39,734 nt of DNA from Spirochaetales bacterium (GTDB lineage: Bacteria; Spirochaetota; Spirochaetia; DSM-2461): positions 1 to 39,734 of the forward strand of contig JAQQAM010000114.1 of assembly GCA_028532905.1 (NCBI GenBank), written 5' to 3'. Both the position numbers and the translations under genes were made by a program. Shown here piece by piece: positions 5,756-39,734 of this stretch (position 1 is its first letter; every line of letters begins with the position of its first letter). The notes under the pieces were generated by a model. The model was not told the DNA's origin. It did no database searches and saw nothing but the letters and a program-made list of their open reading frames with translations.

Positions 5756-6805
5756 TCAGACGTCTGCTGCCGCCTGATAAAGGGCAATGATATTCTCAAC
5801 GGGTGTATTGGGCTGCAGGTTGTGACAGGGGGCTACAATGTAACCTCCGCCCTCTCCAAGGATCTTTTTGCAGTCATTTACTTCCTGTTTCACATCCTCC
5901 GCAGTACCGAAGGGAAGCACATTCTGGTTCTCAACAGCTCCGTGGAAAATGACCCTGTCTCCCAGTTTCTCCTTGAGAACATCTCTTTCCATACCGGGGC
6001 AGATATACTGGATAGGATTGATCACATCCACACCCAGGTTGACCAGTTTCTCGACAATTTCAAAAGCGGAACCGTCACTGTGGTAAAATACTTTCTTGCC
6101 GAAACTGTGTACGGTTTCAATGACTCTGGCAGCGTGGGGTTCAATAAACTCGGACCAGACCTCGGTGGGGATAATCTGTCTGTCCTGCATCCCCATATCA
6201 TCGGAGTAGTAGACCAGATCGATTCCCGGAGCCGCTGTGAGGGAACGTTTGATGTACTCGATCTGGATGTCCGCCAGCTTCTTCAGGGCGGCTCTCAGGA
6301 AGTCCTGATTGATATAGAGGTCCATCAGAGCTTCATCGAAGGATCTCAGGCTGGTATAGGTTTCAAAGAGGGAGACAAAGCTGAGCATGGTGGCCTCATC
6401 CTTGTGGTTTAACCAGGAAGAAGCCAGGGCCTGGAAATCGAACTTGTCCGGGTCGGGCCAGTTGTAGTTTTCCACTTCCTCAACCGTCTCCATTGCCTTC
6501 AGGGGGTAGTAGGAGTTTTCAAGGTATTCTCCGTCCTCATAGGCTTTAGGTTTGTAACAGGCCCCCCATTCGTTGAATATTTCATCTTCGTCGGGATTCT
6601 CTTTGCTCGGTTTGATCTCAGTGTAGGGGGCGCTGAGCCAGTAAATCTTGTCTACCCCCAGTTTTCTGTAGATCTCCTTCTCTTCCGCAGTACCGAAGTG
6701 GTCAGCCAGTTTGTTGAATACCTCTCCGGTCATCCATATATCTGCCGGTGCTCTGTCTACGGGTTTTCTCTCCAGTGTATTCAGAATTCGTTCTTTGGAT
6801 GTCAT
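5756..6805 (-). CDS. URO-D superfamily protein (corrinoid methyltransferase-like)
   Basis: 349 residues, cytoplasmic. It has the uroporphyrinogen decarboxylase/MtaA-MtbA fold: N-terminal MTSKERILNTLERKPVDRAP, central YYSDDMGMQDRQ (199-210), and GGGYIVAPCHNLQPNTPVENI at the end. Catabolic members of the superfamily move methyl groups between corrinoid proteins and acceptors using a zinc site of H-x-C plus a later Cys. Here the H-x-C position reads H242-S-D244, while Cys269 and Cys327 (APCHN) are present, so any metal site differs from those of the two paralogues at 34452 and 37562. True HemE is unlikely given this catabolic context. The gene follows the AraC gene by 50 bases, with GGGAG about 9 bases before the ATG, and is probably co-transcribed with it. 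The substrate is unknown. Confidence 0.8.
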   Translation of the reverse strand: MTSKERILNTLERKPVDRAPADIWMTGEVFNKLADHFGTAEEKEIYRKLGVDKIYWLSAPYTEIKPSKENPDEDEIFNEWGACYKPKAYEDGEYLENSYYPLKAMETVEEVENYNWPDPDKFDFQALASSWLNHKDEATMLSFVSLFETYTSLRSFDEALMDLYINQDFLRAALKKLADIQIEYIKRSLTAAPGIDLVYYSDDMGMQDRQIIPTEVWSEFIEPHAARVIETVHSFGKKVFYHSDGSAFEIVEKLVNLGVDVINPIQYICPGMERDVLKEKLGDRVIFHGAVENQNVLPFGTAEDVKQEVNDCKKILGEGGGYIVAPCHNLQPNTPVENIIALYQAAADV

Positions 6806-7840: not shown

Positions 7841-10800
7841 TTACTCCTTCAGAATGCGAATATCATCGATCCTTACAGGAGCCGCCTCTTCGTTGTAGAG
7901 ACTCAGTGAAATTCCGGTGATAAAACCCTCCCAGTCCGGGTTGTCGGAGAGAGGTATCCTTATTTCCTGCCATTCTCTGTTAGCCGGGTCAAGGGGTACA
8001 GAAGCGTAACCTGTGGCAAACTCATGAGTGCCCTCCAGCTCATTTCTGAGCTCGGTTTTCCACCCCAGATCCAGTGAGTCGGCACCAGCCTCATTCTGGA
8101 GCCTTATTTTTACAACCTGGTTCTTTTCAGCCCAGATAGCCGGTGCGCCCGGCATACAGACCAGATTGGGGTAGGGGTTGGAAACTTCCAGATAACCGTT
8201 CTCAATACGGATTGTATTGATCTGGTTGTGCTGGAAGAATCTGTCTCCGGGACCGTCAAAGCTCCAGTGATACAGAGTCTCCTCTTCCGTAAGGGCTATC
8301 CGGCCGAGGTTCACAACTCCTGCGCTCATTACACTGTCCACAGGTTTCAGAAGAATCCTGTCGATTGTTCCGCTCCATTCAGGATGTTCTCCAATATTGT
8401 AGCGGTAGTCCCTTTGTGTGGGATCGTTGGGGATAACGGGTATCAGCAGAGAGCGTTCGGCGGAAAAATCCTCACCCCTGCGGGCCCAGAAGACTCTGGA
8501 AAGAGAACTTCCGGTTTCATTGGCCATGGTGAACTCCAGATACTGGTTCTTTCCGGCAACAAGATCCAGGCCAGCGGGGGAAGCAATCTCAACAGAGTCG
8601 CCGCTTATGATAAAACCCTCACCGTATGCTTTCAGACCCTCGATGCACCAGTCTTTTGTCCGGTTCTGATTCCACTCGGCCAGGACCCGTCCCGATCTTC
8701 TTGTAACGGCCGGTCTGGGCTCACTCAGACGAAGCAGTCTGCGTGGGGTGACTGAAGCCGCTGGCATACCAGTCAGGCGGTATACTCCAGGAGTCTGGGG
8801 TTCATAACGGACCAGAAGATCTCCGTCTTCCAGAAGATCTGCATAGGGAGAACTGTCGGCTACAGTCCAGCTGCCGTCGGCCAGCTGTTTTTCCAGAGCA
8901 AACCCTTCACCGGGGACAGAGCCTTTCAGCTTCAGAGAGCCTGAAGGATAAAGGAGATCAAAACCTGTACTAATTCCGCTTCCGGTATTCTCAGTATTTT
9001 CCCTGTAGTGGAGCAGAGTCCAGGACGGCTTGCCGTTGTCTCCCAGGTACCATCCGTTTTCACCTTTGATGTTTTCCATTTCCACACGGAAGTGGTCTCC
9101 TGCTCCGGCGACAGGAAGAAGAATATGATCCCCGTCTGTACCGAAGGCATATTCTTTGGTGCAGACCAGATGTTCCTGGCTTCCGTTCAGGCTATAGACC
9201 TTCAGAAGTACCGCATTGCCGGACATCGTCAGTTTTTCCGTCCAGTAGGGGATGCTGATATAGGCCGGAGAGACTCCCCCCGGGAAGAACACTTCCGTTT
9301 CTGCTCTATCCTCTATCTTGAGCACTTCGCCGGCAGGGGCATTTTCGGAGCTTATTCCGGTTTTCCAGTCTGGAGCCGGTACATAGTCTATTTCCAGAAA
9401 ACGGACAGTTTCTGTTCCGTCTCGCAGGTCATCTATTGTGAGAATGACATGGTCATCCTCCCCTGAGTTCCGGGGACTGGCCAGTTCCCGGCTGACATAG
9501 GCCGACCAGGTTTTCCATTCTCCTGAGTCAGTTTTTCTAATGTTTTCAAGAGTTTTTATATTTCCGCCGGGTTCCATTATTTTTATTGCCAGACTGTCCC
9601 GTCCTCTGTCCAGGTAACTGATATGAACTGTGGCACCGTACATACCGGAATATCTGAGACGGGCATCAATATCATACTCAAGCAACCCGCTGGTACCGCC
9701 CTCTGTAGTACTGATGGATTTTTCTCCATTGATGACCGGATAGGCCACTTCATATTTATCGTGATTGCCGGGACTGTGTTTGTACTTGGTATGGTATATT
9801 CCCATCCAGATGTCTTTATAGGAGATGGGTGCGGCAGGTTCCAGCTCCTGAATCATATTGTAAAGGCCGTGGCGGATGTACATCTTTGTATAAAGATCCC
9901 GTCCGATCTGTTCGGTCAGATAGGGAAAGTACTTTTTGACATTACGGCTGAGAATATCGGGGCCGTAAAGATAGAGAACATCCATGCCGTCAATAAGGCA
10001 GCGATTCAGTACGGATAAAGGATGCCCTGTGGGAATCCCTTCTGCACCGGTGATGTCCCTGTAAATCTGACCGGCTGTTTCAAAGACGACACCCACATCA
10101 GGATCATGGCGGTAGCGGTGGGCTCCGTAGGAGAACATGTTCTGTTTCCATATTCCGAACCCTTCCTGCATACCGTTTATCTTCATTTCCAGACCGTAAC
10201 GTCCGCAAAGATGGATGGCTCTCCAGTAAAGGAAATCCTGGTTGGTCATGGAACTGATGGAAAAACCTCCGGCAACCATACGCAGGGGCTTGTCGGGAAA
10301 CTGTTCCTTGTAAAGCTGAATGGCCCATTCCACATGGTCCATGTAAGTATCTTCATTCCAACCGGTCCAGAGCCACTGATTGTCTCTGCGACCCGGGATT
10401 TCTCCTTCCAGATTCAGCTCTCCCCAGCGTCCGAAACCCGTAACAACCACTGTATCAACAGAAGGATGGTCGTTGTAGCGCTCTCCCATAGCTGTAATCA
10501 GTCTGGTCCACTTTTCCTTGAATACCGGATTGTAATAATCGGGGAAACCGACATTTCCGCGGTGGTCCTCGGTTATTTCATGGATAGCCATGTTATCAAT
10601 GAGGATCTCTCCTCCCTTATTGATCAGTACGATCCTGTAGTCCGCATAGGGAGCCAGGTCTACAGTCCAGGATTCCAGACCTGAATCTCCGGCTTTTCCG
10701 GTCCATTCATATCGTCTGAGTGCTTCCTTGCCTCCATCGTCTGAACGGGCTTCTATGGCATAAGTCCCGCTTTTGGGGAGAGAGTAGTCAAACTGAATAC

Positions 10801-11425
10801 CATATTTTTTTCCGGGCTTCAGGAGACCGGCATCTGTTTTGAGAATATCTCCTTTTTTTACACTGTAAAGACTTCTCAGGCCGCTGAGAGTCAGATTGCG
10901 GTCTTTTGTTCTTTCTCCGGCAGAACCCAGGGTGTAGGGACCTTTTTTTTCAAAATCCAGTTCAGTTCCGGCGGCTATCCGTCTGACCTTGTAACGGTCA
11001 AACAGCCAGGCCGGAGTGATATGGGTATTCTGATTCGCTGAAACCATTCGGATATCGATGGTTTTTCCATAGGGTGCCCACAGAGCAATGGCATCATCGA
11101 TATTACTCCAGTCGTATACACCTTCAACCGATTCCACCATGTTCCATTCAATCAGGATCTCAACACCTTTTACGTCAGGGTCATGGATTCCTGCCGCCAC
11201 TTCCCATAGGGAGTTTTCCCCGGAAAAGGTTATGATCCCCCCTCTGTCGTAAAATCCTTCCGGAACTCCTGTCTGAACAGTCTGTTCCGGGCGGGGTGCT
11301 TCTGATGATACGGGACTTCCCGTTATTATGTTTTTTTCAGTAGTAACTGTTTCCATCATATCTCCCGGTGTGGTACATCCCGCCGTCAGAATGAGGAGCA
11401 GTAGGGAATAGAATATTTTTCTCAT
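7841..11425 (-). CDS. Large glycosidase-like lipoprotein (GH42-like barrel), paralogue of the 19105 gene
   Basis: 1194 residues. The signal peptide MRKIFYSLLLLILTAGC has lipobox TAGC (Cys17). Residues 75-150 start a (beta/alpha)8 barrel of the GH42/beta-galactosidase-like type (DPDVKGVEILIEW, VYDWSNIDDAIALWAPYGK). A beta-sandwich appears inserted at about 165-285. The barrel resumes at about 295-500, with GRWGELNLEGE (Glu336) and VVFETAGQIY (Glu449) as likely acid/base and nucleophile. The remaining ~690 residues are repeated beta-sandwich, CBM-like modules. The paralogue has the same two Glu residues with the same 113-residue spacing. It lies 65 bases after a sugar-binding protein gene, behind a strong terminator hairpin. 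The role is probably initial attack on an oligosaccharide at the cell surface or in the periplasm; the sugar is unknown and activity is inferred. Confidence 0.75.
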   Translation of the reverse strand: MRKIFYSLLLLILTAGCTTPGDMMETVTTEKNIITGSPVSSEAPRPEQTVQTGVPEGFYDRGGIITFSGENSLWEVAAGIHDPDVKGVEILIEWNMVESVEGVYDWSNIDDAIALWAPYGKTIDIRMVSANQNTHITPAWLFDRYKVRRIAAGTELDFEKKGPYTLGSAGERTKDRNLTLSGLRSLYSVKKGDILKTDAGLLKPGKKYGIQFDYSLPKSGTYAIEARSDDGGKEALRRYEWTGKAGDSGLESWTVDLAPYADYRIVLINKGGEILIDNMAIHEITEDHRGNVGFPDYYNPVFKEKWTRLITAMGERYNDHPSVDTVVVTGFGRWGELNLEGEIPGRRDNQWLWTGWNEDTYMDHVEWAIQLYKEQFPDKPLRMVAGGFSISSMTNQDFLYWRAIHLCGRYGLEMKINGMQEGFGIWKQNMFSYGAHRYRHDPDVGVVFETAGQIYRDITGAEGIPTGHPLSVLNRCLIDGMDVLYLYGPDILSRNVKKYFPYLTEQIGRDLYTKMYIRHGLYNMIQELEPAAPISYKDIWMGIYHTKYKHSPGNHDKYEVAYPVINGEKSISTTEGGTSGLLEYDIDARLRYSGMYGATVHISYLDRGRDSLAIKIMEPGGNIKTLENIRKTDSGEWKTWSAYVSRELASPRNSGEDDHVILTIDDLRDGTETVRFLEIDYVPAPDWKTGISSENAPAGEVLKIEDRAETEVFFPGGVSPAYISIPYWTEKLTMSGNAVLLKVYSLNGSQEHLVCTKEYAFGTDGDHILLPVAGAGDHFRVEMENIKGENGWYLGDNGKPSWTLLHYRENTENTGSGISTGFDLLYPSGSLKLKGSVPGEGFALEKQLADGSWTVADSSPYADLLEDGDLLVRYEPQTPGVYRLTGMPAASVTPRRLLRLSEPRPAVTRRSGRVLAEWNQNRTKDWCIEGLKAYGEGFIISGDSVEIASPAGLDLVAGKNQYLEFTMANETGSSLSRVFWARRGEDFSAERSLLIPVIPNDPTQRDYRYNIGEHPEWSGTIDRILLKPVDSVMSAGVVNLGRIALTEEETLYHWSFDGPGDRFFQHNQINTIRIENGYLEVSNPYPNLVCMPGAPAIWAEKNQVVKIRLQNEAGADSLDLGWKTELRNELEGTHEFATGYASVPLDPANREWQEIRIPLSDNPDWEGFITGISLSLYNEEAAPVRIDDIRILKE

Positions 11426-19104: not shown

Positions 19105-22100
19105 ATGATCCGGAGATTTCCGATCCTGCTGCTGACAGCTGTTCTGCTGGGCGGCTGTCTGACAGTATCCACAGTGCCTGAGTTTAATGACTACATACCT
19201 CCGTCGGGAAAATACCTGACAGATGCAGAAAGGGAAAATCTTCTTTCCTGGCAAGCTCCTGAAATAGAGATTCTACAGAAACCGGAAATTCCGGAAGGAT
19301 ATTGGAAGAGCGGATTTACCAACTTCTCCGGTCAGGATGATGTGGAAGAGAATATTGCCGGTCTCCTTGATCCTCATGTCTATGAGGCTGAGATCTATCT
19401 GGACTGGCGGACTGTAGAGCCGGAGGAGGGTGTTTTTAACTGGAAGCCCATCGATGATCAGATTGCCCTCTGGGCAGCCTACGGTAAAAAGGTGGCCATC
19501 CGTGTTGTTACCGCCAGCCACAATACTCTGGAGACACCCCGTTGGCTTCATGAAGTTTATCATGTGAGGAAAATAACCAAAGGGATCTGGACCGATTTTG
19601 AATCAACTGAAAAATCCTTTTCCCCTCTGGGGAAAACTGTTGTGACCAAAAAACGGGATGATTCCATTTCCGGTATCCGTTCTGCCTACAGTGAATATAA
19701 AGGGGATATGCTGGAGCTTCGGGAGGGCAAAGTTTCAGGGAACCGCTTTTATGCGGTTCAGTTTGATTATGCCTCACCTTCAGGAGGCCGTTATTATGCA
19801 GCTGCCGTCAGCCGGGAAGGGGGGCCTGAAGCGACTCGTTTTATGACCTGGGATGCCGCTGCAGGGGAATCGGGAAGCCGCTTCTGGTCGGTAATCACAG
19901 GCCCCTGGCAGGATTATAGAATTGTCTGGGGTATTGAAGAAGGGGATTCTCTCTTACTGGATAATCTTCTTGTTTATGAGCAGGCCTATGGAATAGGACG
20001 AACCGTGGGCTATCCGGATTATTTTAATCCTGTTTATCACGAAAAATGGGGCAATTTTGTAGAGGCGCTGGGTGAGCGCTACGCCCATAATCCCCATGTG
20101 GAAACCGTTTGTGTATCCGGGCATGGCCGGTACGGTGAACTGGGTATCGAGGGCGATCGGGCAGGCCATCATGATCCCCAGTGGATGGCCATCGGCTTTA
20201 CCCAGGAAAAATACATGGATATTGTGGAAGGGAATATTAAGCTTTTTAAAAAACACTTCCCCGACAAGATCCTGCGGATGGTGGCGGGAGGTACGGTTCT
20301 TCCCGGATGGACCGATGAGAATTATATCTACTACAGAGGTATAAATACCTGTGCCGAATATGGAGTGCAGTTCAAAATCAACGGCATGCAGGAGGCCTTC
20401 GGTGTCTGGGGTACTAATGCATTCTCCTACGGTGCCAACAGGTATAAGCATAACAGTGACACCAGCATCTCCATAGAAACTGCCGGTCAGATCTACCGGA
20501 ATGATACAGGAAAGCCCACAGTTCCTACTGGCCATGCTATCTCTACTCTGAACAGAGTTCTTATAGACGGTATGGATAATATGTACCTCTATTCCCATGA
20601 TGCTATGGCCGATTCTGTTCGGAAGTATCTTCCCTATATGGCCGGGCAGATGGGTAGTGAGCAGCTGACAAGGTTCTACTGCCGTCCGGGTATGTACAGG
20701 GAATCCAATTCTGTAGCCGAGGTGCTTCAGGAATATAAGGATGTCTGGCTGGGAATATTCCGTAAACAGTATCCTGATGATGCCGGACTGCCTCTGCAAT
20801 ACGGAGAGCTTCTGACTCATAATGGGGAACATGCAGTCCGCAGCGGAAACAGCGTTCTTGATTTTGAACTGGATGCCCGGCAGCGGTATAACGGACTTTA
20901 CGGAACAACTATCACAGTGGTTTATCTAGATGAAGGCACCGATTCCTTTACAGTACAGGTCAATGATTCTGTGGATGAACTGAAACTGAGAACTCTCGAA
21001 ACTATTACAAAAACAGGCACAGGAGAGTGGAAGACTCTCAGTCTCTATGATTCAGCCTGGTCTGCCTCCTACCGCAACTTTGGAAAAGATATGGGAACCA
21101 ATATCGTCATTGATGATAACGGTGACGGTCCGGAAACTCTGCGCCTGATCGAAGTGGCTGCTGTTCCTGCCCTTGAGTGGAACCGGAGTCCTGTGGCGGA
21201 AAATCCTGTTCTGCCGGAAGATATACTTCTGCTGGAAGGTGGAGAACGCTGGGATATCACTGTTCCAGTTGATATTCCTGCAACCATGCTGACCCTCCCA
21301 ATTTATCAGGACAACAGCCATAAGAAGAACTTTATCAGGTTCAAACTGTTCCGGAATACAGAAAGGGGAGAGGAACTGATTGCCGACAGGGAACTGTATT
21401 ATGCAAGAGACGGTCTGGATCTTCACCTCCCTCTGGACGGTACAGTCCTTTCAGGAACATACATACTGGAAGTTGCAGAAACAGAAGGTGTTATCGGAGT
21501 ATACGGGGGAGAAGACGGAACACCTGCCTGGACTGCCTGGCGTTATGAAACCCTCCCCGGTGCCGAACAGACTCCTGTTCCCGGAAAGGCCGGTACTGAA
21601 GAGGCGCTTGTCTTTGATGCCGACAGTCCTTTCTATATGATTCAGCTTCAGGGGGCAGTGTCCGGAAACTCTTACCGTATTGAAAAACGCATGGCAGGCA
21701 GCGGGCAGTGGACTCCTGTCAGCTCTGCTGTTCAGGCTGTTTCTCTTGATGGTAAGACTGTATTGCCTTTTGAGCCTCAGACTGCCGGAGAGTACAGAAT
21801 CCTGGGAGAAAGCGGTGCAATACGGAACATCAGGAGCCTGTCTCCGGGAAATCTGATCCGGCTGACGGAAGCCAAGGGAGTGGTTTATCAGCCAGTGGGA
21901 GAGAGTCTGATTCTCTGGAATGCTGATGAAATTAGCAGATCATGGTCACTCAGTTCTCTGGAGAAGGGCGGAGCCGGCAGGAATGCACTGGAACTGAAGG
22001 TCCGCGGAACCGAACCTGCTGTAACATCCCCTCGTCTTGATCTGAAAGCCAGGAGAAACCAGTTTATCTCCTTTTCTCTGATCAATGGAACCGACAGTTC

Positions 22101-22767
22101 CATGGCCAGAGTTTTCTGGAAAGGTCCGGGACAGGATTTTCATGCCGAACGTTCTATGTTGCTGCCGGTTATTCCCAACGACCCCCGGTTGAGGAGCTAT
22201 GACTATCCTCTGGGAGATCATCCTCTTTGGACCGGGGATATCTCTGAAATCAAAGTAATGTTTGCCGACGGCGGAACAAACAGAGGTCAACTGTCACTGA
22301 AGTCTGTAGAAATAAGGGAAAGAACGACCCTCTACAATGCCCGTTTTGACGGTCCTGCAGACCGGATGTTCCATATTGCCACAAGAAAACCGGCAGAGAT
22401 CCGTGACGGGAAGCTCTATATAACCGAACCCTTTGCCTCCCTCAGTACTGTTATGACCATGCCGGATTTCCAGGCTGAGCCGGGACAGGTGATAGAGGTC
22501 AGAGTCAAAAACTCATCTGACGCTGGTTATCTTGATATAGGATGGGCAGCTGCAGACTGGATGGAAGGTCTCTATAGCTATGACAGCTATTACCTCAGTG
22601 CTGAAATGGACGCCTACGATTCGGAGTACCGGGTATTTCGTTTTTCTCCCGAAGCTGATGACGGCTGGAAGGGAAGGATCAACCGGATCTTCCTGAAGTT
22701 TGACAATATGGATACAGACAAACCAGTCCTGGTGGACAGTATCAGAATCTACAGAGAGAAGGAATAA
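19105..22767 (+). CDS. Large glycosidase-like lipoprotein (GH42-like barrel), paralogue of the 7841 gene
   Basis: 1220 residues. Signal peptide MIRRFPILLLTAVLLGGC with lipobox LGGC (Cys18); AAGGAG 8 bases before the ATG. The domain plan repeats that of the 7841 protein: barrel start at about 85-155 (DPHVYEAEIYLDW, VFNWKPIDDQIALWAAYGKK), inserted beta-sandwich at about 180-295, and barrel end at about 300-510. GRYGELGIEGD (Glu345) and SIETAGQIY (Glu458) are the probable catalytic pair. The C-terminal half is CBM-like sandwiches ending in VLVDSIRIYREKE. The conserved segments FPDK-LRMVAGG and KINGMQE-FG-W show clear paralogy. The next gene starts 2 bases after its stop, so it heads an operon with an amidohydrolase and a metallo-beta-lactamase-fold protein. 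The substrate is unknown. Confidence 0.78.
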   Translation: MIRRFPILLLTAVLLGGCLTVSTVPEFNDYIPPSGKYLTDAERENLLSWQAPEIEILQKPEIPEGYWKSGFTNFSGQDDVEENIAGLLDPHVYEAEIYLDWRTVEPEEGVFNWKPIDDQIALWAAYGKKVAIRVVTASHNTLETPRWLHEVYHVRKITKGIWTDFESTEKSFSPLGKTVVTKKRDDSISGIRSAYSEYKGDMLELREGKVSGNRFYAVQFDYASPSGGRYYAAAVSREGGPEATRFMTWDAAAGESGSRFWSVITGPWQDYRIVWGIEEGDSLLLDNLLVYEQAYGIGRTVGYPDYFNPVYHEKWGNFVEALGERYAHNPHVETVCVSGHGRYGELGIEGDRAGHHDPQWMAIGFTQEKYMDIVEGNIKLFKKHFPDKILRMVAGGTVLPGWTDENYIYYRGINTCAEYGVQFKINGMQEAFGVWGTNAFSYGANRYKHNSDTSISIETAGQIYRNDTGKPTVPTGHAISTLNRVLIDGMDNMYLYSHDAMADSVRKYLPYMAGQMGSEQLTRFYCRPGMYRESNSVAEVLQEYKDVWLGIFRKQYPDDAGLPLQYGELLTHNGEHAVRSGNSVLDFELDARQRYNGLYGTTITVVYLDEGTDSFTVQVNDSVDELKLRTLETITKTGTGEWKTLSLYDSAWSASYRNFGKDMGTNIVIDDNGDGPETLRLIEVAAVPALEWNRSPVAENPVLPEDILLLEGGERWDITVPVDIPATMLTLPIYQDNSHKKNFIRFKLFRNTERGEELIADRELYYARDGLDLHLPLDGTVLSGTYILEVAETEGVIGVYGGEDGTPAWTAWRYETLPGAEQTPVPGKAGTEEALVFDADSPFYMIQLQGAVSGNSYRIEKRMAGSGQWTPVSSAVQAVSLDGKTVLPFEPQTAGEYRILGESGAIRNIRSLSPGNLIRLTEAKGVVYQPVGESLILWNADEISRSWSLSSLEKGGAGRNALELKVRGTEPAVTSPRLDLKARRNQFISFSLINGTDSSMARVFWKGPGQDFHAERSMLLPVIPNDPRLRSYDYPLGDHPLWTGDISEIKVMFADGGTNRGQLSLKSVEIRERTTLYNARFDGPADRMFHIATRKPAEIRDGKLYITEPFASLSTVMTMPDFQAEPGQVIEVRVKNSSDAGYLDIGWAAADWMEGLYSYDSYYLSAEMDAYDSEYRVFRFSPEADDGWKGRINRIFLKFDNMDTDKPVLVDSIRIYREKE

Positions 22768-34292: not shown

Positions 34293-34377
34293 CCTTGATG
34301 ATCCTGCCTGATCCGGCATGTCTCTGATGACAAATTATATAAAAGATCCTGTTTTCTCGTAATTAATCCATAATAAT

Positions 34378-34392
34378 CCGGAATAATTACAA
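34378..34392 (+). promoter_or_regulatory. AT-rich element upstream of the 34452 gene (candidate AraC site)
   Basis: CCGGAATAATTACAA, preceded by two similar 10-base units (AATTAATCCA, TAATAATCCG) in phase from 34361. It lies directly before the place of a -35 box, while only a -10-like TATCAT (34417-34422) is visible. This fits an activator-dependent promoter. A similar element occurs before the 37562 and 38862 genes. Confidence 0.45.
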
Positions 34393-34451: not shown

Positions 34452-35705
34452 ATGACACCAAGAGAACGGGTTCTCGCTGCCATTAATCATAAAGAACCGG
34501 ACAGAGTCCCTGTTGATCTGGGGGCGACTCCCAGTTCCGGTATTTCCGCCATAGCTCATGCCAGACTGATGAAGCATCTGGGCTGGGATGATAAAACTCT
34601 CATCTATGATGTGGTTCAGCAGCTGGCTCAGCCCGGTGAACGGCTGATAGACAGGCTGGGCGTTGATGTTCTGGATATCGGACGGACCTTCAATGAAAAG
34701 GATTCCGACTGGTACGGCATCAGCCTTCCGGGACAGTATAAAGCCTTTAATCCGGCCTGGTTCAGACCGGTTCAGGATGATTCGGGCAGCTGGATCTCCT
34801 ATCATAAGGACGGGACTCCCATAGCCGCCATGCCCGAGGGGGCCACTTTTTATGATCAGACCATTTTCCCCTGGCTGGACGGATATCCCGACAGCCGGAA
34901 GGGGATGGAGGAAAGCCTGGATGAAGCCATGGATAAAATCCTGTGGGCGAATATGGTGCACAGTCCCTGGGATCATGCGGGGGAAGCCGATTTCTGGCAG
35001 ACCCTGAGACAGAAAACTCTGAAACTGAGAGAAGAGAGCGACAAGGCTCTTCTGGTGGTCTGCGGATCCAATCTTTTCGAGTGGGGAACCTTTCTCCGCC
35101 GGATGGATAACTTTCTGATGGATCTGTATATAGACCAGGACAATGTGGCCATACTCATGGAACTCCTTATGGAGCGTCATATGAAGACCCTGGAGAAGGT
35201 GTGTGATGCGGTTGGCGATGTTGTGGATGTTCTCCGCTTCGGCGATGACCTGGGGATGGATTCGGGTCCCTTTATGGGTATGGAGATCTATACAGAGCTG
35301 TTTCACGATCACCGAAAGAAACTTTGTTCCTATGTGCATGACAACAGCGGTATGAAAACATTCCTTCACAGCTGCGGTTCTATTTATCAGTATATTCCTT
35401 CTCTTATTGATGAGGGCATTGATATTATCAATCCTCTGCAAACCAATTGTCTGGATATGGAACCGGAGAAGGTTAAAGCCGAGTTCGGAAAGGATATGTG
35501 CTTCTGGGGAGGCGGAATGGATCCCCGGGTAATCCTGAATAACGGAACCCCCGCTATGGTCAGGGATGAAGTGAAAAGGCGTCTGGATATACTGAGTCCC
35601 GGGGGAGGATATGTTTTCAATAATATTCACAATATCATGCCCGATGTTCCGCCAGAGAATATACTGGCTCTCTTTGATGCGGTTCTGGAATATCGGATTT
35701 CCTGA
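34452..35705 (+). CDS. URO-D superfamily protein (corrinoid methyltransferase-like)
   Basis: 417 residues, longer than usual for the family because of an insertion at about 95-200. GGAGAGA lies 5 bases before the ATG. It has the family opening MTPRERVLAAINHKEPDRVP, FGDDLGMDSGP (263-272), FLHSCGSIYQYIPSLIDEG with H306-x-C308, TNCLDMEP (Cys333), and GGGYVFNNIHNIMPDVPPENI at the end. Unlike the 5756 paralogue it keeps the H-x-C but lacks the C-terminal Cys (NIHN instead of PCHN). Methyl transfer from or to a corrinoid protein is the best-known catabolic role in the superfamily, yet no corrinoid protein is encoded nearby. It is followed by the XylR-like regulator gene, probably in one transcript. 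Confidence 0.82.
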   Translation: MTPRERVLAAINHKEPDRVPVDLGATPSSGISAIAHARLMKHLGWDDKTLIYDVVQQLAQPGERLIDRLGVDVLDIGRTFNEKDSDWYGISLPGQYKAFNPAWFRPVQDDSGSWISYHKDGTPIAAMPEGATFYDQTIFPWLDGYPDSRKGMEESLDEAMDKILWANMVHSPWDHAGEADFWQTLRQKTLKLREESDKALLVVCGSNLFEWGTFLRRMDNFLMDLYIDQDNVAILMELLMERHMKTLEKVCDAVGDVVDVLRFGDDLGMDSGPFMGMEIYTELFHDHRKKLCSYVHDNSGMKTFLHSCGSIYQYIPSLIDEGIDIINPLQTNCLDMEPEKVKAEFGKDMCFWGGGMDPRVILNNGTPAMVRDEVKRRLDILSPGGGYVFNNIHNIMPDVPPENILALFDAVLEYRIS

Positions 35706-35757
35706 TCCCCTATAACAGAACCCTGTGTTACAATAGGAGGACATAATTTCACCGGGG

Positions 35758-37473
35758 TTGAAATTGAAAAATATATCTCCTCTGATTCTGATCGGCAACA
35801 AAATCGATACAACGTCCATGCCCCGTCCGGAGCATCAGGATACCTATCCGCTGGATGATGAAAGACACTGGTACGATCTGGAACATATGCACTGGCAGGT
35901 TAAGAAACTGCCCATGCCCGAAAGCGCGATGGACGGTCCGGAAGGGAAACGGGTTATATGCAATATTCCCATGAAACATCCCTATATGGACAAGTTCCGC
36001 TTCGGCCTGGAACAGGTGGCTGCGGTAAACGATATTGAGCTGGAAATCGTCTATACAGAGAGAGACTACAGCGCTCAGGTGAATTATGCCGATCTGGTTA
36101 TAGAGAAAAAGCCGGACCTGGCAATACATCTTATGCCTGAGTTCAATCACGTAAAGGGGTTGTATCAGAAGATCTATTCCGCAGGAATTCCCATAATATG
36201 CAGCAATCTGATGCCGGCTCAGGAAGACCTCCCCTATATTCTCTCCTGGACAGGCCCGCATGACTGGGAAATGTCCCGGGAGCTGGCCCGTCATTTTGCC
36301 GCCTATATGAATTATGAAGGGGGATATACCCTGATTCAGCATCTGGAGGGAACTTCCTGCAATGTGGCCAGAACCTGGGGCGTCATTTCAGAGCTTAAAA
36401 AAATAGCCCCCCGCATGCACTGCCTGGATTACTGTTCCACAGAAATGAACCAGTTGCTGTCGGAGAAAGCCGTTGAAAAATGGATTTCCCGGTTCGGCAG
36501 TGAACTGAAAGGAATCGTCTCTGCCGACAGCCTGATTGTACAGAAGGGGATAAACCGGGCTCTGGGCAGGATGAAAAGAGAGGATATCATCTGTGTTTCC
36601 CACTGGAGTCCTCCGGAAGCCCTGAATTTTATCAAACACGGTTCTTTAAAGGCAACAACATACCAGTCGGGAATTATTGACGGAACCCTGTCCATGCAGA
36701 CGGCAGTGGACTGGTTCAACGGGTTTGAAATTCCTCCCGTCTGTTTTATGCCGGTTCATATTATTACAGAGGATGATGTGGATCAGTTTCTGACCAAAAG
36801 GAATGAACTGCCTGTGATCGATTATGATCCTTTTACGGTGTCTCTCAAGCTGGGAGACAGCTCCGGTGTTCAGTCCTATTTTGGAGATCTTATCAGGAAA
36901 TTCCAGGAGTGCAGTCTGATCACAGCCGAGTACTGCAGCGGTGTGGCCATCGAAATCCTGTCCCGGTTTATCGCTGTCAGTGCGGAGCAGGGGATCAATA
37001 ACAGGAGCCTGACGGGCTGCAATAATCCTGCCATGCTGACCAAACAGATTCTTCATCAGAAAAGCTTTGACAAGACCCTGAACTGGCTGGAAAAAATATC
37101 GCTCCGGTACTGTGAACTGGTAAAGACAGAGCTCCCCTCCAAGGTCTCCATCGAGCAGATTGTGGAGTATGTGAAGCACAATTCCATGAAGCCCCTCTCC
37201 CTGAAAACCCTTTCGTATCAGTTTAATCTGTCCGCTGCCTATCTGGGGCAGCTGTACAAAAAGGAGACAGGTGAGAACTTCTCCAGCCACCTCAATATTA
37301 TCCGTGTGGAACAGGCTAAGATTCTGCTGGGGAATCCTCTGCTCAAGGAGTATGAAATAGCCAGAGAAGTGGGGTATTCCGACTCCAGCTACTTCTTCAG
37401 GATCTTCAAAAAGCAGACCGGAATGAATCCTTCAGAGTACAGAGATATGATACAATCCGGCCGGAATCCATAA
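35758..37473 (+). CDS. XylR-like regulator: periplasmic-binding-protein domain fused to AraC DNA-binding domain
   Basis: 571 residues from a TTG at 35758, but the strong AGGAGG (35735-35740) is too far for it. In-frame ATT at 35746 has ideal spacing and may be the true start, adding four residues. Residues 60-350 form a type I periplasmic-binding-protein domain (RVICNIPMKHPYMDKFRFG, IYSAGIPIICSNLMPAQ, WISRFGSELKGIVSAD), without any signal peptide. Residues 465-565 hold the AraC helix-turn-helix pair (LKTLSYQFNLSAAYLGQLYK, YEIAREVGYSDSSYFFRIFK, TGMNPSEYRD). E. coli XylR has the same plan and binds xylose. The sensor is visibly homologous to the binding protein at 38862, so both probably recognise related ligands. 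It is likely the local activator. Confidence 0.88.
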   Translation: MKLKNISPLILIGNKIDTTSMPRPEHQDTYPLDDERHWYDLEHMHWQVKKLPMPESAMDGPEGKRVICNIPMKHPYMDKFRFGLEQVAAVNDIELEIVYTERDYSAQVNYADLVIEKKPDLAIHLMPEFNHVKGLYQKIYSAGIPIICSNLMPAQEDLPYILSWTGPHDWEMSRELARHFAAYMNYEGGYTLIQHLEGTSCNVARTWGVISELKKIAPRMHCLDYCSTEMNQLLSEKAVEKWISRFGSELKGIVSADSLIVQKGINRALGRMKREDIICVSHWSPPEALNFIKHGSLKATTYQSGIIDGTLSMQTAVDWFNGFEIPPVCFMPVHIITEDDVDQFLTKRNELPVIDYDPFTVSLKLGDSSGVQSYFGDLIRKFQECSLITAEYCSGVAIEILSRFIAVSAEQGINNRSLTGCNNPAMLTKQILHQKSFDKTLNWLEKISLRYCELVKTELPSKVSIEQIVEYVKHNSMKPLSLKTLSYQFNLSAAYLGQLYKKETGENFSSHLNIIRVEQAKILLGNPLLKEYEIAREVGYSDSSYFFRIFKKQTGMNPSEYRDMIQSGRNP

Positions 37474-37480
37474 TTTTTCA

Positions 37481-37532
37481 ACAATAATTGCAAATAAATA
37501 CAATTTTGTCCTCCTTTTTCCGGTGCTATTCT
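37481..37532 (+). promoter_or_regulatory. Candidate activator-dependent promoter of the 37562 gene
   Basis: ACAATAATTGCAAA (37481-37494) then ATACAATTTTGTCC (37498-37511) and GGTGCTAT (37522-37529), with only a poor -10 (TATTCT, 37527-37532). The same order of elements occurs at 38624-38678 before the binding protein gene. Confidence 0.45.
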
Positions 37533-37561
37533 GATTTAAAAGAGAGAATCAGGAAGGAAAA

Positions 37562-38608
37562 ATGACATCCAGAGAACGAGTCCATGCCGTATTCAATAAT
37601 CAGCTTCCCGACAGGATGCCCCGCTGGCTGGGGATGTCGGATGAATTCAGTCTGAAAATCCAGAACTACCTGGATATGGACGAAGAAGGAGTCAGACGTT
37701 TTGTGAAGGATGACTTCCGGGTTGTCCGGGGCAGGTTTACCGGAAGTCAGGAGAATCTGGCAGAGGGGGCCACCTGGCGGAGCCCCTTTGGTGTGGAGCG
37801 TAAAGGAATCGGTTTCGGCATGCCCCTGTCCCATCCCCTCCAGGATGTCACAACACCCGAAGAGCTGGAGGCCTACAACTGGCCTTCTACAGATCTGATT
37901 GACTGCTCCCTCCTCAGAGACGATATTTCCCGGTATGAGGGGGAATACGCCATACTGGGAGGAGAGTGGTCCCCCTTCTGGCACGATGCCATTGATCTTG
38001 TGGGGCACGAAGAGCTCTATTTTCTGATGTTTGATTACCCGGAGACCGCCAGGCTCCTGTTTGAAAAGATCACTGATTACTATGTGGAGAACAGCAGACT
38101 TTTTTTTGAGGAAGCCGGTGATCTGACGGATATCTTTTTTATAGGCAACGACCTGGGCAGCCAGTCCGGCCCTTTAATGGGAATCAATCAGTTCCGGGAA
38201 TTCCTTCTGCCTTCCATTAAACGGCTGGTTGATCTGGGACATGAATACGGCCTGAAGGTGATGATGCACTGCTGCGGCGGATACCGTCCCCTGATCCCTT
38301 CTCTTATCGAAATCGGCATGGACGGACTCCATGCCCTGCAGCCGGACTGCCATGGTATGGAACCGGAGGGTATTAAAAGGGACTTCGGTTCCCATATTGT
38401 GCTGAACGGGGCCATAGACTCTCATCACATCCTGATTAATGGAAAATCTGCACAAGAGGTAAAACAGGGCTGCCGCAGAGTTTTGGACATAATGGGCCGG
38501 GGCGGAGCCTATATTGCCGGCGCCAGCCATGACACCATTCTGGAAGAAACTCCTGTGGAGAATGTTCTGGCCATGTTTGAGGCTGTAGATGAGTATGAAT
38601 ATCTTTAA
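37562..38608 (+). CDS. URO-D superfamily protein (corrinoid methyltransferase-like)
   Basis: 348 residues; AGGAAGG about 5 bases before the ATG. Family features: MTSRERVHAVFNNQLPDRMP, FFIGNDLGSQSGPLMG (192-207), VMMHCCGGYRPLIPSLIEIG with H236-C-C238, and PDCHGMEPEGI (Cys263). It ends with RGGAYIAGASHDTILEETPVENV, so the C-terminal Cys of classical methylcobamide methyltransferases is absent (ASHD). It shares H-x-C plus loop-Cys with the 34452 paralogue. The gene sits between the XylR-like regulator and an RbsB-like binding protein; with both it probably forms a small uptake and conversion module. The substrate is unknown. Confidence 0.82.
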   Translation: MTSRERVHAVFNNQLPDRMPRWLGMSDEFSLKIQNYLDMDEEGVRRFVKDDFRVVRGRFTGSQENLAEGATWRSPFGVERKGIGFGMPLSHPLQDVTTPEELEAYNWPSTDLIDCSLLRDDISRYEGEYAILGGEWSPFWHDAIDLVGHEELYFLMFDYPETARLLFEKITDYYVENSRLFFEEAGDLTDIFFIGNDLGSQSGPLMGINQFREFLLPSIKRLVDLGHEYGLKVMMHCCGGYRPLIPSLIEIGMDGLHALQPDCHGMEPEGIKRDFGSHIVLNGAIDSHHILINGKSAQEVKQGCRRVLDIMGRGGAYIAGASHDTILEETPVENVLAMFEAVDEYEYL

Positions 38609-38623
38609 ATACAATCGGGTTTT

Positions 38624-38841
38624 TTCGAAATTATTCCAGTTTTATACATAATTTGTCCGGTTGCGGGTGTTCTATAACGGATTTAATCTGAATGAAAGAT
38701 GGATGGAAAAAGACAATTTTTCATTTATTTTTACAATCTTCCGGTTCCCCTGAGAGGGTCAGGAGAACATGAGAAAACAGGGAACTGAAGGTCCGGCGGG
38801 CCTTTAGCTATATAATCACCGGAATTGGTACACGGTTCCGG
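38624..38841 (+). promoter_or_regulatory. Regulatory region of the 38862 binding-protein gene
   Basis: The 253 bases from 38609 to 38861 hold no gene. TTCGAAATTATTCCAG (38624-38639) is, on the minus strand, close to the element at 34378. It is followed by CATAATTTGTCC (38647-38658), GGTG (38666-38669) and TATAAC (38673-38678). An imperfect palindrome GTTCCCCTGA/TCAGGAGAAC spans 38744-38768. TATAAT at 38811-38816 has no -35 partner, and CCGGAA/TTCCGG (38819-38841) forms a leader stem before the ribosome site. Either -10 could serve; activator control is likely. Confidence 0.45.
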
Positions 38842-38861
38842 GAAATTAAGGAGTATGTGTT

Positions 38862-39734
38862 ATGAAGAGAATCTTTACACTGTTACTGATGACTGTACTG
38901 GTCGCAGGGTCCGTATTTGCTGCTGGTCAGCAGGAAGCTGCTGCAACTGACAGTCCCGATTCCTCAGCCAATCTGGCTGCGTCTAAAGCTATTGATATTT
39001 CCGATGTCCGTGGTAGTGACGGTCAGCTTCTGCTGATCTACGGTGATACAAGACCTGTTCCCCCCAAACCCACCGATCAGGAAGCTCTTGATATGTGGAA
39101 ACTGGAATATGCCGGTCGCCAGACTAAAAAAGTTGAAATGATTCCTTCCCCCGGCGATGGTATCATCGGCAAGAAAATTGTTATGATTCAGCAGTCTGAG
39201 CATCCTTACTGGACAGCTGTTAGTAACGGTTCAAGAATCGCCTGTGAAGCCTATCAAGCCGAATTTGAACTGTGGAACCCCAATGGTGACCTGAATCAGC
39301 AGAACCAGTATGTAGACCGTGCGATTGCTGAAAAAGCCGATATGGTTCTTCTGGCAACCCTCGATGCTAAAGCTGGTGTACAGCAGTTCAAAAAACTGTA
39401 TGATGCCGGAATCCCCGCCATTGCCTACAACATGATCCCCAATGATGATGCCATGAGATACGTTCTTGCCATTACGGCTCCCGATGATTTCGGACAGTTC
39501 AAAATGCTTGCTGAATACATGGCTCAGCAGGTCGGCGGTAAAGGCGGAGTCGGATATATTACCCATATTCCCGGAGGATCTCCCTATTTTGCCAGAACAA
39601 CAAATGTTGTTGAGTACTACAAGGAAAATCACCCCGGTATGAAGACTCTGGATATTCAGTCTCCCGGATTTGATGCCCCCAAAACCAAGCAGGTTGTGGC
39701 CGACTGGATTACCCGTTTTGGTGATGAACTGACT
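38862..39734 (+). CDS. RbsB-like sugar ABC transporter substrate-binding protein (3' partial)
   Basis: 291 codons, open to the window end. TAAGGAG lies 8 bases before the ATG. The signal peptide MKRIFTLLLMTVLVAGSVFA is followed by AGQQEAA, a common spirochaete mature start, and a long Ala/Ser/Asp-rich linker. From about residue 100 a type I periplasmic-binding-protein fold begins: GKKIVMIQQSEHPYWTAVSNG, QYVDRAIAEKADMVLLATLD, YDAGIPAIAYNMIPND, GGKGGVGYITHIPGG. It aligns by eye with the sensor domain of the regulator at 35758 (HPY, AGIP-I--N-MP, WI-RFG-EL). Permease and ATPase genes of the RbsC/RbsA type would be expected to the right, outside the window. Confidence 0.9.
   Translation, partial: MKRIFTLLLMTVLVAGSVFAAGQQEAAATDSPDSSANLAASKAIDISDVRGSDGQLLLIYGDTRPVPPKPTDQEALDMWKLEYAGRQTKKVEMIPSPGDGIIGKKIVMIQQSEHPYWTAVSNGSRIACEAYQAEFELWNPNGDLNQQNQYVDRAIAEKADMVLLATLDAKAGVQQFKKLYDAGIPAIAYNMIPNDDAMRYVLAITAPDDFGQFKMLAEYMAQQVGGKGGVGYITHIPGGSPYFARTTNVVEYYKENHPGMKTLDIQSPGFDAPKTKQVVADWITRFGDELT

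Follow-up and report, generated by a model that had tools for sequence, protein, structure and literature searches.

A periplasmic-binding-protein module common to the exported protein and AraC-type regulators of a spirochaete sugar-uptake locus and to chemoreceptors of related bacteria

At the right end of contig C114 in the draft genome of a Spirochaetales bacterium (4.98 Mb in 296 contigs), the gene for an AraC-type regulator lies two genes upstream of that for an exported sugar-binding protein, which raises the question of whether the two proteins recognize their ligands with related domains on the two sides of the membrane and, if so, what the system is for. The window analyzed here is the entire contig, of 39,734 bases, and the genes concerned lie in a row on its + strand. 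These are URO-D1 (34452-35705), a member of the URO-D superfamily (PF01208, E 5e-21); Reg1 (35758-37473), which encodes a regulator of 571 residues that combines a periplasmic-binding-protein (PBP) domain with an AraC domain; URO-D2 (37562-38608), also of the URO-D superfamily (PF01208, E 1.4e-24); and the start of the binding-protein gene (38862-39734), which gives the N-terminal 291 residues of a CUT2-type protein and is open at the contig end. The original prediction, which saw a self-contained sensing circuit in these four genes, had located all of them correctly.

It is clear that the sensor of Reg1 and the exported protein are homologous. Both contain a Peripla_BP_4 domain (PF13407 in Reg1, residues 71-318), and their BLASTP alignment has 74 identities in 236 positions (31%, E 4e-28). 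This alignment includes all three motifs that had first suggested the relationship, HPY, AGIP-I--N-MP and WI-RFG-EL, and begins well upstream of the Pfam domain, in an N-terminal stretch of approximately 55 residues that ordinary RbsB-type proteins do not have. When Reg1 was searched against its own genome, the binding-protein-type matches in the sensor region at E<=1e-5 were the neighboring binding protein, a fragment on contig C156, across the contig break, and a second, full-length regulator (Reg2) on that same contig. The other CUT2-type binding proteins of the genome were absent from the matches of this whole-genome search, while the neighboring protein itself matches them at E 1e-6 to 1e-10. 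Given that these other proteins go unmatched by Reg1, the likeness between Reg1 and its neighbor exceeds a generic similarity of fold.

The reading frame of Reg1 starts at a TTG codon (35758 or 35764) and covers the N-terminal extension (35779-35946, approximate limits), the PBP sensor domain (35947-36795, about residues 64-346), a linker region that is all-helical in the predicted structure (36796-37137, about residues 347-460) and the AraC-type double helix-turn-helix (HTH) (37144-37455, about residues 463-566). HTH_18 is found at residues 488-563, and the C-terminal double HTH typical of the AraC family has both PF12833 (E 1.2e-16) and PF00165 over the cut-off. Reg1 has neither a signal peptide nor an N-terminal transmembrane segment; the binding protein starts with a single hydrophobic segment (residues 1-23). 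Start codons of Reg1 seem weak, since the relative genome G005 has a CTG that follows an in-frame stop and is preceded by GGAGG (L051, near 14840). The predicted structure of Reg1 (mean pLDDT 86.3) superposes on the ribose-binding protein 2ioy_A with a Z of 32.6 and a root-mean-square deviation of 2.1 over 273 aligned residues, and the model of an exported family member (pLDDT 89.5) matches the ribose-binding-protein structure 4kq9 with a Z of 31.8. These matches of predicted models confirm the fold rather than the ligand.

The N-terminal extension is specific to this family. Hidden Markov models of it were built from one class of protein each, exported, AraC-type or chemoreceptor-borne (the last are described below), and every one of them matched both other classes, while none of 18 outgroup proteins, comprising other binding proteins and regulators, was matched at E<=10. 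The extension is weak or truncated in a few members, for example in Reg_L053 and in Reg1 of G005 when translation of the latter is begun at the first ATG.

In a tree of 48 PBP domains (IQ-TREE, LG+C20 PMSF), one clade with a support of 100/100 unites 10 exported proteins, 16 AraC-type sensors and 4 chemoreceptor-borne domains. RbsB, XylF, MglB, AraF, YtfQ, AlsB, LsrB, the LacI-type regulators and E. coli XylR lie outside this clade, as do the other binding proteins from the genome of the window and from its relatives. The sensor thus groups with the exported protein, apart from XylR and the LacI-type regulators; the grouping with XylR or other distant regulators that would have spoken against the original prediction did not appear, and the proposal that outside capture and inside sensing have a shared ancestry was right in kind. 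It could be argued that this is only the generic relatedness of the PBP fold, in the manner of LacI and RbsB or of XylR and XylF, and that the neighborhood is coincidental, given that E. coli XylR and XylF are also adjacent and share the fold. A generic match is excluded, however, by the extension and by the fully supported clade, and a grouping of the family regulators with XylR is disfavored (approximately unbiased (AU) test, p 0.010, with a single XylR on a long branch), which makes this explanation very improbable.

Within the family, the 16 AraC-type sensors form a clade (96/87) and the exported proteins form another (98/100); the picture was the same, with lower support (90/87 for the regulators, 84/100 for the exported proteins), in a reduced tree that had fewer long branches in its outgroup. 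A single clade for the chemoreceptor copies was not rejected (p 0.40). Reg1 stands on a long branch of its own, of 0.8-0.9 changes per column. The original prediction had an AraC domain capturing the neighboring binding-protein gene, and this part does not hold: the regulators belong together, and a recent local duplication of the neighbor gene into Reg1, with an exclusive pairing of Reg1 and the local exported protein, is rejected (AU p 0.004). For these two reasons the fusion is old, and the domains have diverged ever since. It is more likely that the sensor arose by fusion of a binding protein from this family, along with its extension, to an AraC domain, given that the nearest outgroup is an exported protein; the tree alone leaves the direction of the fusion unsettled. 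This outgroup (L087 7911-8864, from one of the genomes around the Clostridia genome G415) joins the family with a support of 99/95, does not carry the extension and is useful for rooting.

The gene cluster extends beyond the end of the window. The first 92 residues encoded on contig C156, in an open frame, match the C-terminal portion that the binding protein lacks on C114. No sequence overlap joins C114 to C156 and approximately 13 residues are missing between them; we infer the join because the loci of relatives are intact. In G005, one contig carries URO-D1, Reg1, URO-D2, the binding protein, the ATPase, two permeases, rhaM, a protein of 437 residues, URO-D3 and Reg2, and Spirochaeta sp. 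UBA5339 has the same order minus URO-D2. On C156, the open frame is followed by a CUT2 ATPase, two permeases, an rhaM-family protein resembling L-rhamnose mutarotases, the 437-residue protein and a URO-D protein, with Reg2 on the other strand. Over the two contigs there is, therefore, a CUT2 uptake system with an RbsB-type binding protein, a double-domain ATPase and BPD_transp_2 permeases, bracketed by Reg1 at one end and Reg2 at the opposite one. Given this second regulator, and the chemoreceptor versions found in relatives, the description as a self-contained circuit was too narrow.

The 437-residue protein (L025 4520-5833) is present in nearly all cassettes with the gene order of the window, and its last third resembles distant URO-D proteins; it has no match in Pfam or NCBIfam, and a sequence search of the PDB gave nothing meaningful. 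At E<=1e-40, the family was found in 5 of the 393 genomes sampled from the phylum and in 3 of 398 genomes around G415, the third of these being weak. Within these two samples, the family is rare yet not bound to a lineage. A search of a contig collection with Reg2 returned one close relative and one match to the HTH only.

In relatives, the module, with its extension, also forms the C-terminal domain of four proteins that contain an MCPsignal domain; G011 has two of them, and G005 and G398, the latter a genome of another family, have one each (L058 2-2323; L059 224-2602; L060 6412-8646; L074 5093-7933). These copies end in ..P-QW, as the exported proteins do. One of them has two transmembrane segments and a HAMP domain before the signaling domain, and one has no transmembrane segment. 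The module is predicted to be cytoplasmic because it is C-terminal of the signaling domain, with the transmembrane segments located before that domain or absent. None of the four copies lies beside a transport cassette. Judging from its distribution, the same module seems to have been put to three uses, namely uptake, gene control and navigation. In the open-access literature, no description was found of chemoreceptors with a C-terminal periplasmic-binding-protein domain, nor of PBP-AraC fusions in spirochaetes.

The nature of the ligand can be approached from the genes that accompany the transporter. Cassettes with the exported protein, the CUT2 transporter, rhaM and URO-D genes are also found in G249 and G270, which belong to other families of the phylum, and similar ones occur in G627 and G786, two genomes from the phylum of a Clostridia metagenome-assembled genome. 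The cassettes of G627 and G786, on the Bacillota side, include an L-fucose isomerase far over the cut-off, a class II aldolase-family gene and a CoA-type aldehyde dehydrogenase, and their regulator is of the LacI type instead of PBP-AraC; in G270 there is an L-rhamnose isomerase near the cassette. Because related cassettes adjoin isomerase genes for L-fucose or L-rhamnose, the ligand is probably a 6-deoxyhexose-type sugar, a reading on which the transport cassettes converge. Some PBP-AraC relatives have varied neighbors, namely a PFL-like glycyl radical enzyme (G005, G018), Pterin_bind and MTHFR genes (G270) and a sulfatase (G002), and for this reason the regulators of the family probably serve more than one ligand.

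A further consideration of the URO-D proteins suggests that the sugar is perhaps O-methylated. The best NCBIfam matches of URO-D1 are methylcobamide:coenzyme M (CoM) methyltransferases, all far below the cut-off, and for URO-D2 the only solved relative found by sequence is the methylcobalamin:CoM methyltransferase 4ay7 (E 5e-5). The HxC motif is invariant in all 10 URO-D proteins aligned, and in URO-D1 and URO-D2 a His further downstream completes the mapped Zn positions. Elsewhere in the genome there are eight B12-binding matches, and one corrinoid-binding protein adjoins a URO-D gene on contig C160. The genome has 32 URO-D family matches spread over many contigs, which is unusually many; the third of the window lies at 5756-6805 on the - strand, beside an AraC-type gene. 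No description of anaerobic demethylation of O-methyl sugars by URO-D proteins was found in the open-access literature.

We give about even chances to a reading in which the cluster serves to take up, sense and convert a 6-deoxyhexose-type sugar, with demethylation by URO-D proteins included. In such a system, the exported protein would bind the sugar outside the cell and the CUT2 ATP-binding cassette transporter encoded on C156 would import it. Reg1 and Reg2 would bind the imported sugar, or one derived from it, in a homologous pocket, and their HTH domains would then act, presumably by activation rather than repression, on two promoters, one in front of URO-D1 and one in front of the binding-protein gene. 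Interconversion of anomers would fall to the rhaM-like protein, and removal of the O-methyl group, ahead of a route of the FucI/RhaA type, to the URO-D proteins as corrinoid-type methyltransferases. The uptake and conversion pathway that had been suggested from the window, and described as new, is in this way plausible and more specified, by its 6-deoxyhexose context. The PFL-like, Pterin_bind and MTHFR neighbors of family regulators also count in its favor. What the sequences themselves show is the homology, the common extension, the gene order, the conservation of the repeats and the isomerase neighborhood; the ligand, the demethylation, the pairing of regulators with promoters and the mode of regulation are inferred from these.

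Several observations weigh against this reading. The URO-D scores to methyltransferase models are far below the cut-offs, with 38.7 and 68.7 bits against the 235.4 demanded by TIGR01463. With the metal ligands of MtaA, His-x-Cys and Cys, as the reference, the mapped third position is a His and not a Cys, and therefore these proteins would not be typical thiol methyltransferases. The cluster encodes no corrinoid protein or activator, and in the spirochaete loci neither a sugar isomerase nor an aldolase was found beside the window's own cassette. The sugar pocket was mapped onto E. coli RbsB through a multiple sequence alignment rather than from a liganded structure of the family, and Reg1 retains all the mapped pocket residues except Gly215, which is Trp with a His before it.

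The weak scores and the missing corrinoid protein would fit equally with an ordinary 6-deoxyhexose or related sugar and URO-D proteins that do something other than demethylate, such as co-regulated chemistry on another substrate; with so many URO-D genes in the genome, their proximity could also reflect a general expansion. Nonetheless, URO-D1, URO-D3 and usually the 437-residue protein recur with the binding protein and the transporter in several families, and the recurrence extends to another phylum, with more distant URO-D proteins. This alternative is a real possibility that we hold below the demethylation reading's even chance.

As to the pocket, the RbsB contact positions that were mapped are those of its published structure. 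In most members of all classes, these positions hold His13, Tyr/Trp15, Asn89, Pro103, Arg141, Asp190, Gly215 and Gln235 (RbsB numbering), of which Asn89, Asp190 and Gly215 are not the residues that other binding proteins have most often. Reg2 retains nearly all of them, including AG at 214-215 as in the exported protein, while the corresponding residues of Reg1 are HW in each of the three genomes with this regulator, and at positions 16 and 164 all regulators differ from the exported proteins. The claim that capture and sensing use related pockets stands, then, for several mapped positions and fails for 214-215 in Reg1 and for 164 and 16. The pattern may mean that the regulators respond to two signals, Reg2 to the imported sugar and Reg1 to a downstream product, which would give feed-forward control together with product sensing. 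The closeness of the Reg2 pocket to that of the exported protein and the long branch of Reg1 are in favor of this division of labor; against it, the pocket comes from an alignment, and the differences at 164 and 16 leave room for Reg2 to have shifted too. We consider two signals possible, without favoring them over a common ligand. A more ambitious version of the demethylation reading would have a single extension-marked module serve uptake, transcription and cytoplasmic chemotaxis sensing, with the same kind of pocket inside and outside, for an O-methylated 6-deoxyhexose that URO-D proteins demethylate anaerobically; taken as a whole, this is rather unlikely.

Two candidate operators were found in the window. 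Upstream of URO-D1 (34361-34388) there is an inverted pair formed by AATTAATCC (34361-34369, +) and AATTATTCC (34380-34388, -), and upstream of the binding-protein gene (38629-38658, +) there is a direct repeat, AATTATTCC-N12-AATTTGTCC, with a period of 21 bp. Half-sites of AraC-family proteins are commonly spaced at two helical turns. The direct-repeat block, exact in the window, recurs at the corresponding position in UBA5339 and G005. The motif AATTAWTCC has only three matches in the window, the pair upstream of URO-D1 and the site at 38629, and in G005 (L051) it occurs twice, only upstream of URO-D1 and of the binding-protein gene. Given that the motif was picked after inspection, this count is supportive and does not amount to a test. 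AATTAWTCC was not found in C156, and there is thus no link between this motif and Reg2. A short repeat, CAGTATAMAGTATA, lies upstream of Reg2 (L025, about 8885-8935) and is conserved at the same place in three genomes (also L026 and L051), where it is a possible autoregulatory site. Elsewhere in the window, two exported proteins of approximately 1,200 residues, encoded at 7841-11425 (-) and 19105-22767 (+), have similar openings and look like paralogues.

This locus offers a natural and testable case of a binding protein turned into an intracellular sensor, with three outputs for one module, of which two are encoded together, next to a transporter that matches them. A comparison of the pockets would reveal whether outside capture and inside sensing stay matched or drift. 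If the ligand is an O-methylated deoxy sugar, the cluster would also point to a way in which methylated sugars of plants or algae are used anaerobically, and would give a function to several unassigned URO-D-type proteins.

Among the known systems, the methyltransferases of the MtaA/MtbA/CmuA type and the type 1 mlp clusters (PMC10418091) belong to the same URO-D superfamily and have the HxC metal-ligand motif; they differ in having Cys as the third ligand where a His is mapped here, in scores that the present proteins fall far short of, and in the corrinoid protein and activase that this cluster is without. The cluster would work like E. coli XylR beside XylFGH, with an N-terminal PBP sensor, a C-terminal AraC-type HTH and a gene next to a CUT2 sugar transporter, and the solved XylR chains 4fe4 and 4fe7 match the HTH part of Reg1. 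The sensor, however, is not of the XylR lineage as tested here, since that of XylR falls outside the family; moreover, in this cluster the sensor shares its extension with the exported protein, a helical linker of about 110 residues is present and two regulators bracket the genes. Methyl-accepting chemotaxis proteins have the same canonical MCPsignal domain as the chemoreceptor copies of relatives, in which, by contrast, the PBP module is C-terminal of the signaling domain and predicted to be cytoplasmic. In ordinary chemoreceptors, the ligand domains work in the periplasm, as do the binding proteins docking to such receptors. The LacI/GalR regulators also have a sensor akin to RbsB-type binding proteins, although their DNA-binding domain is of another kind and at the opposite end, and LacI-type proteins lie outside the family clade. 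Their descent from periplasmic sugar-binding proteins is presented as an established precedent in a passage of PMC6079105, which cites Fukami-Kobayashi 2003 for it. Engineered chimeras in which a binding protein is joined to a transcription factor domain to act as a sensor (PMC6079105) follow the same joining principle; those chimeras are artificial, whereas here it is seen in an evolved family with a matching transporter.

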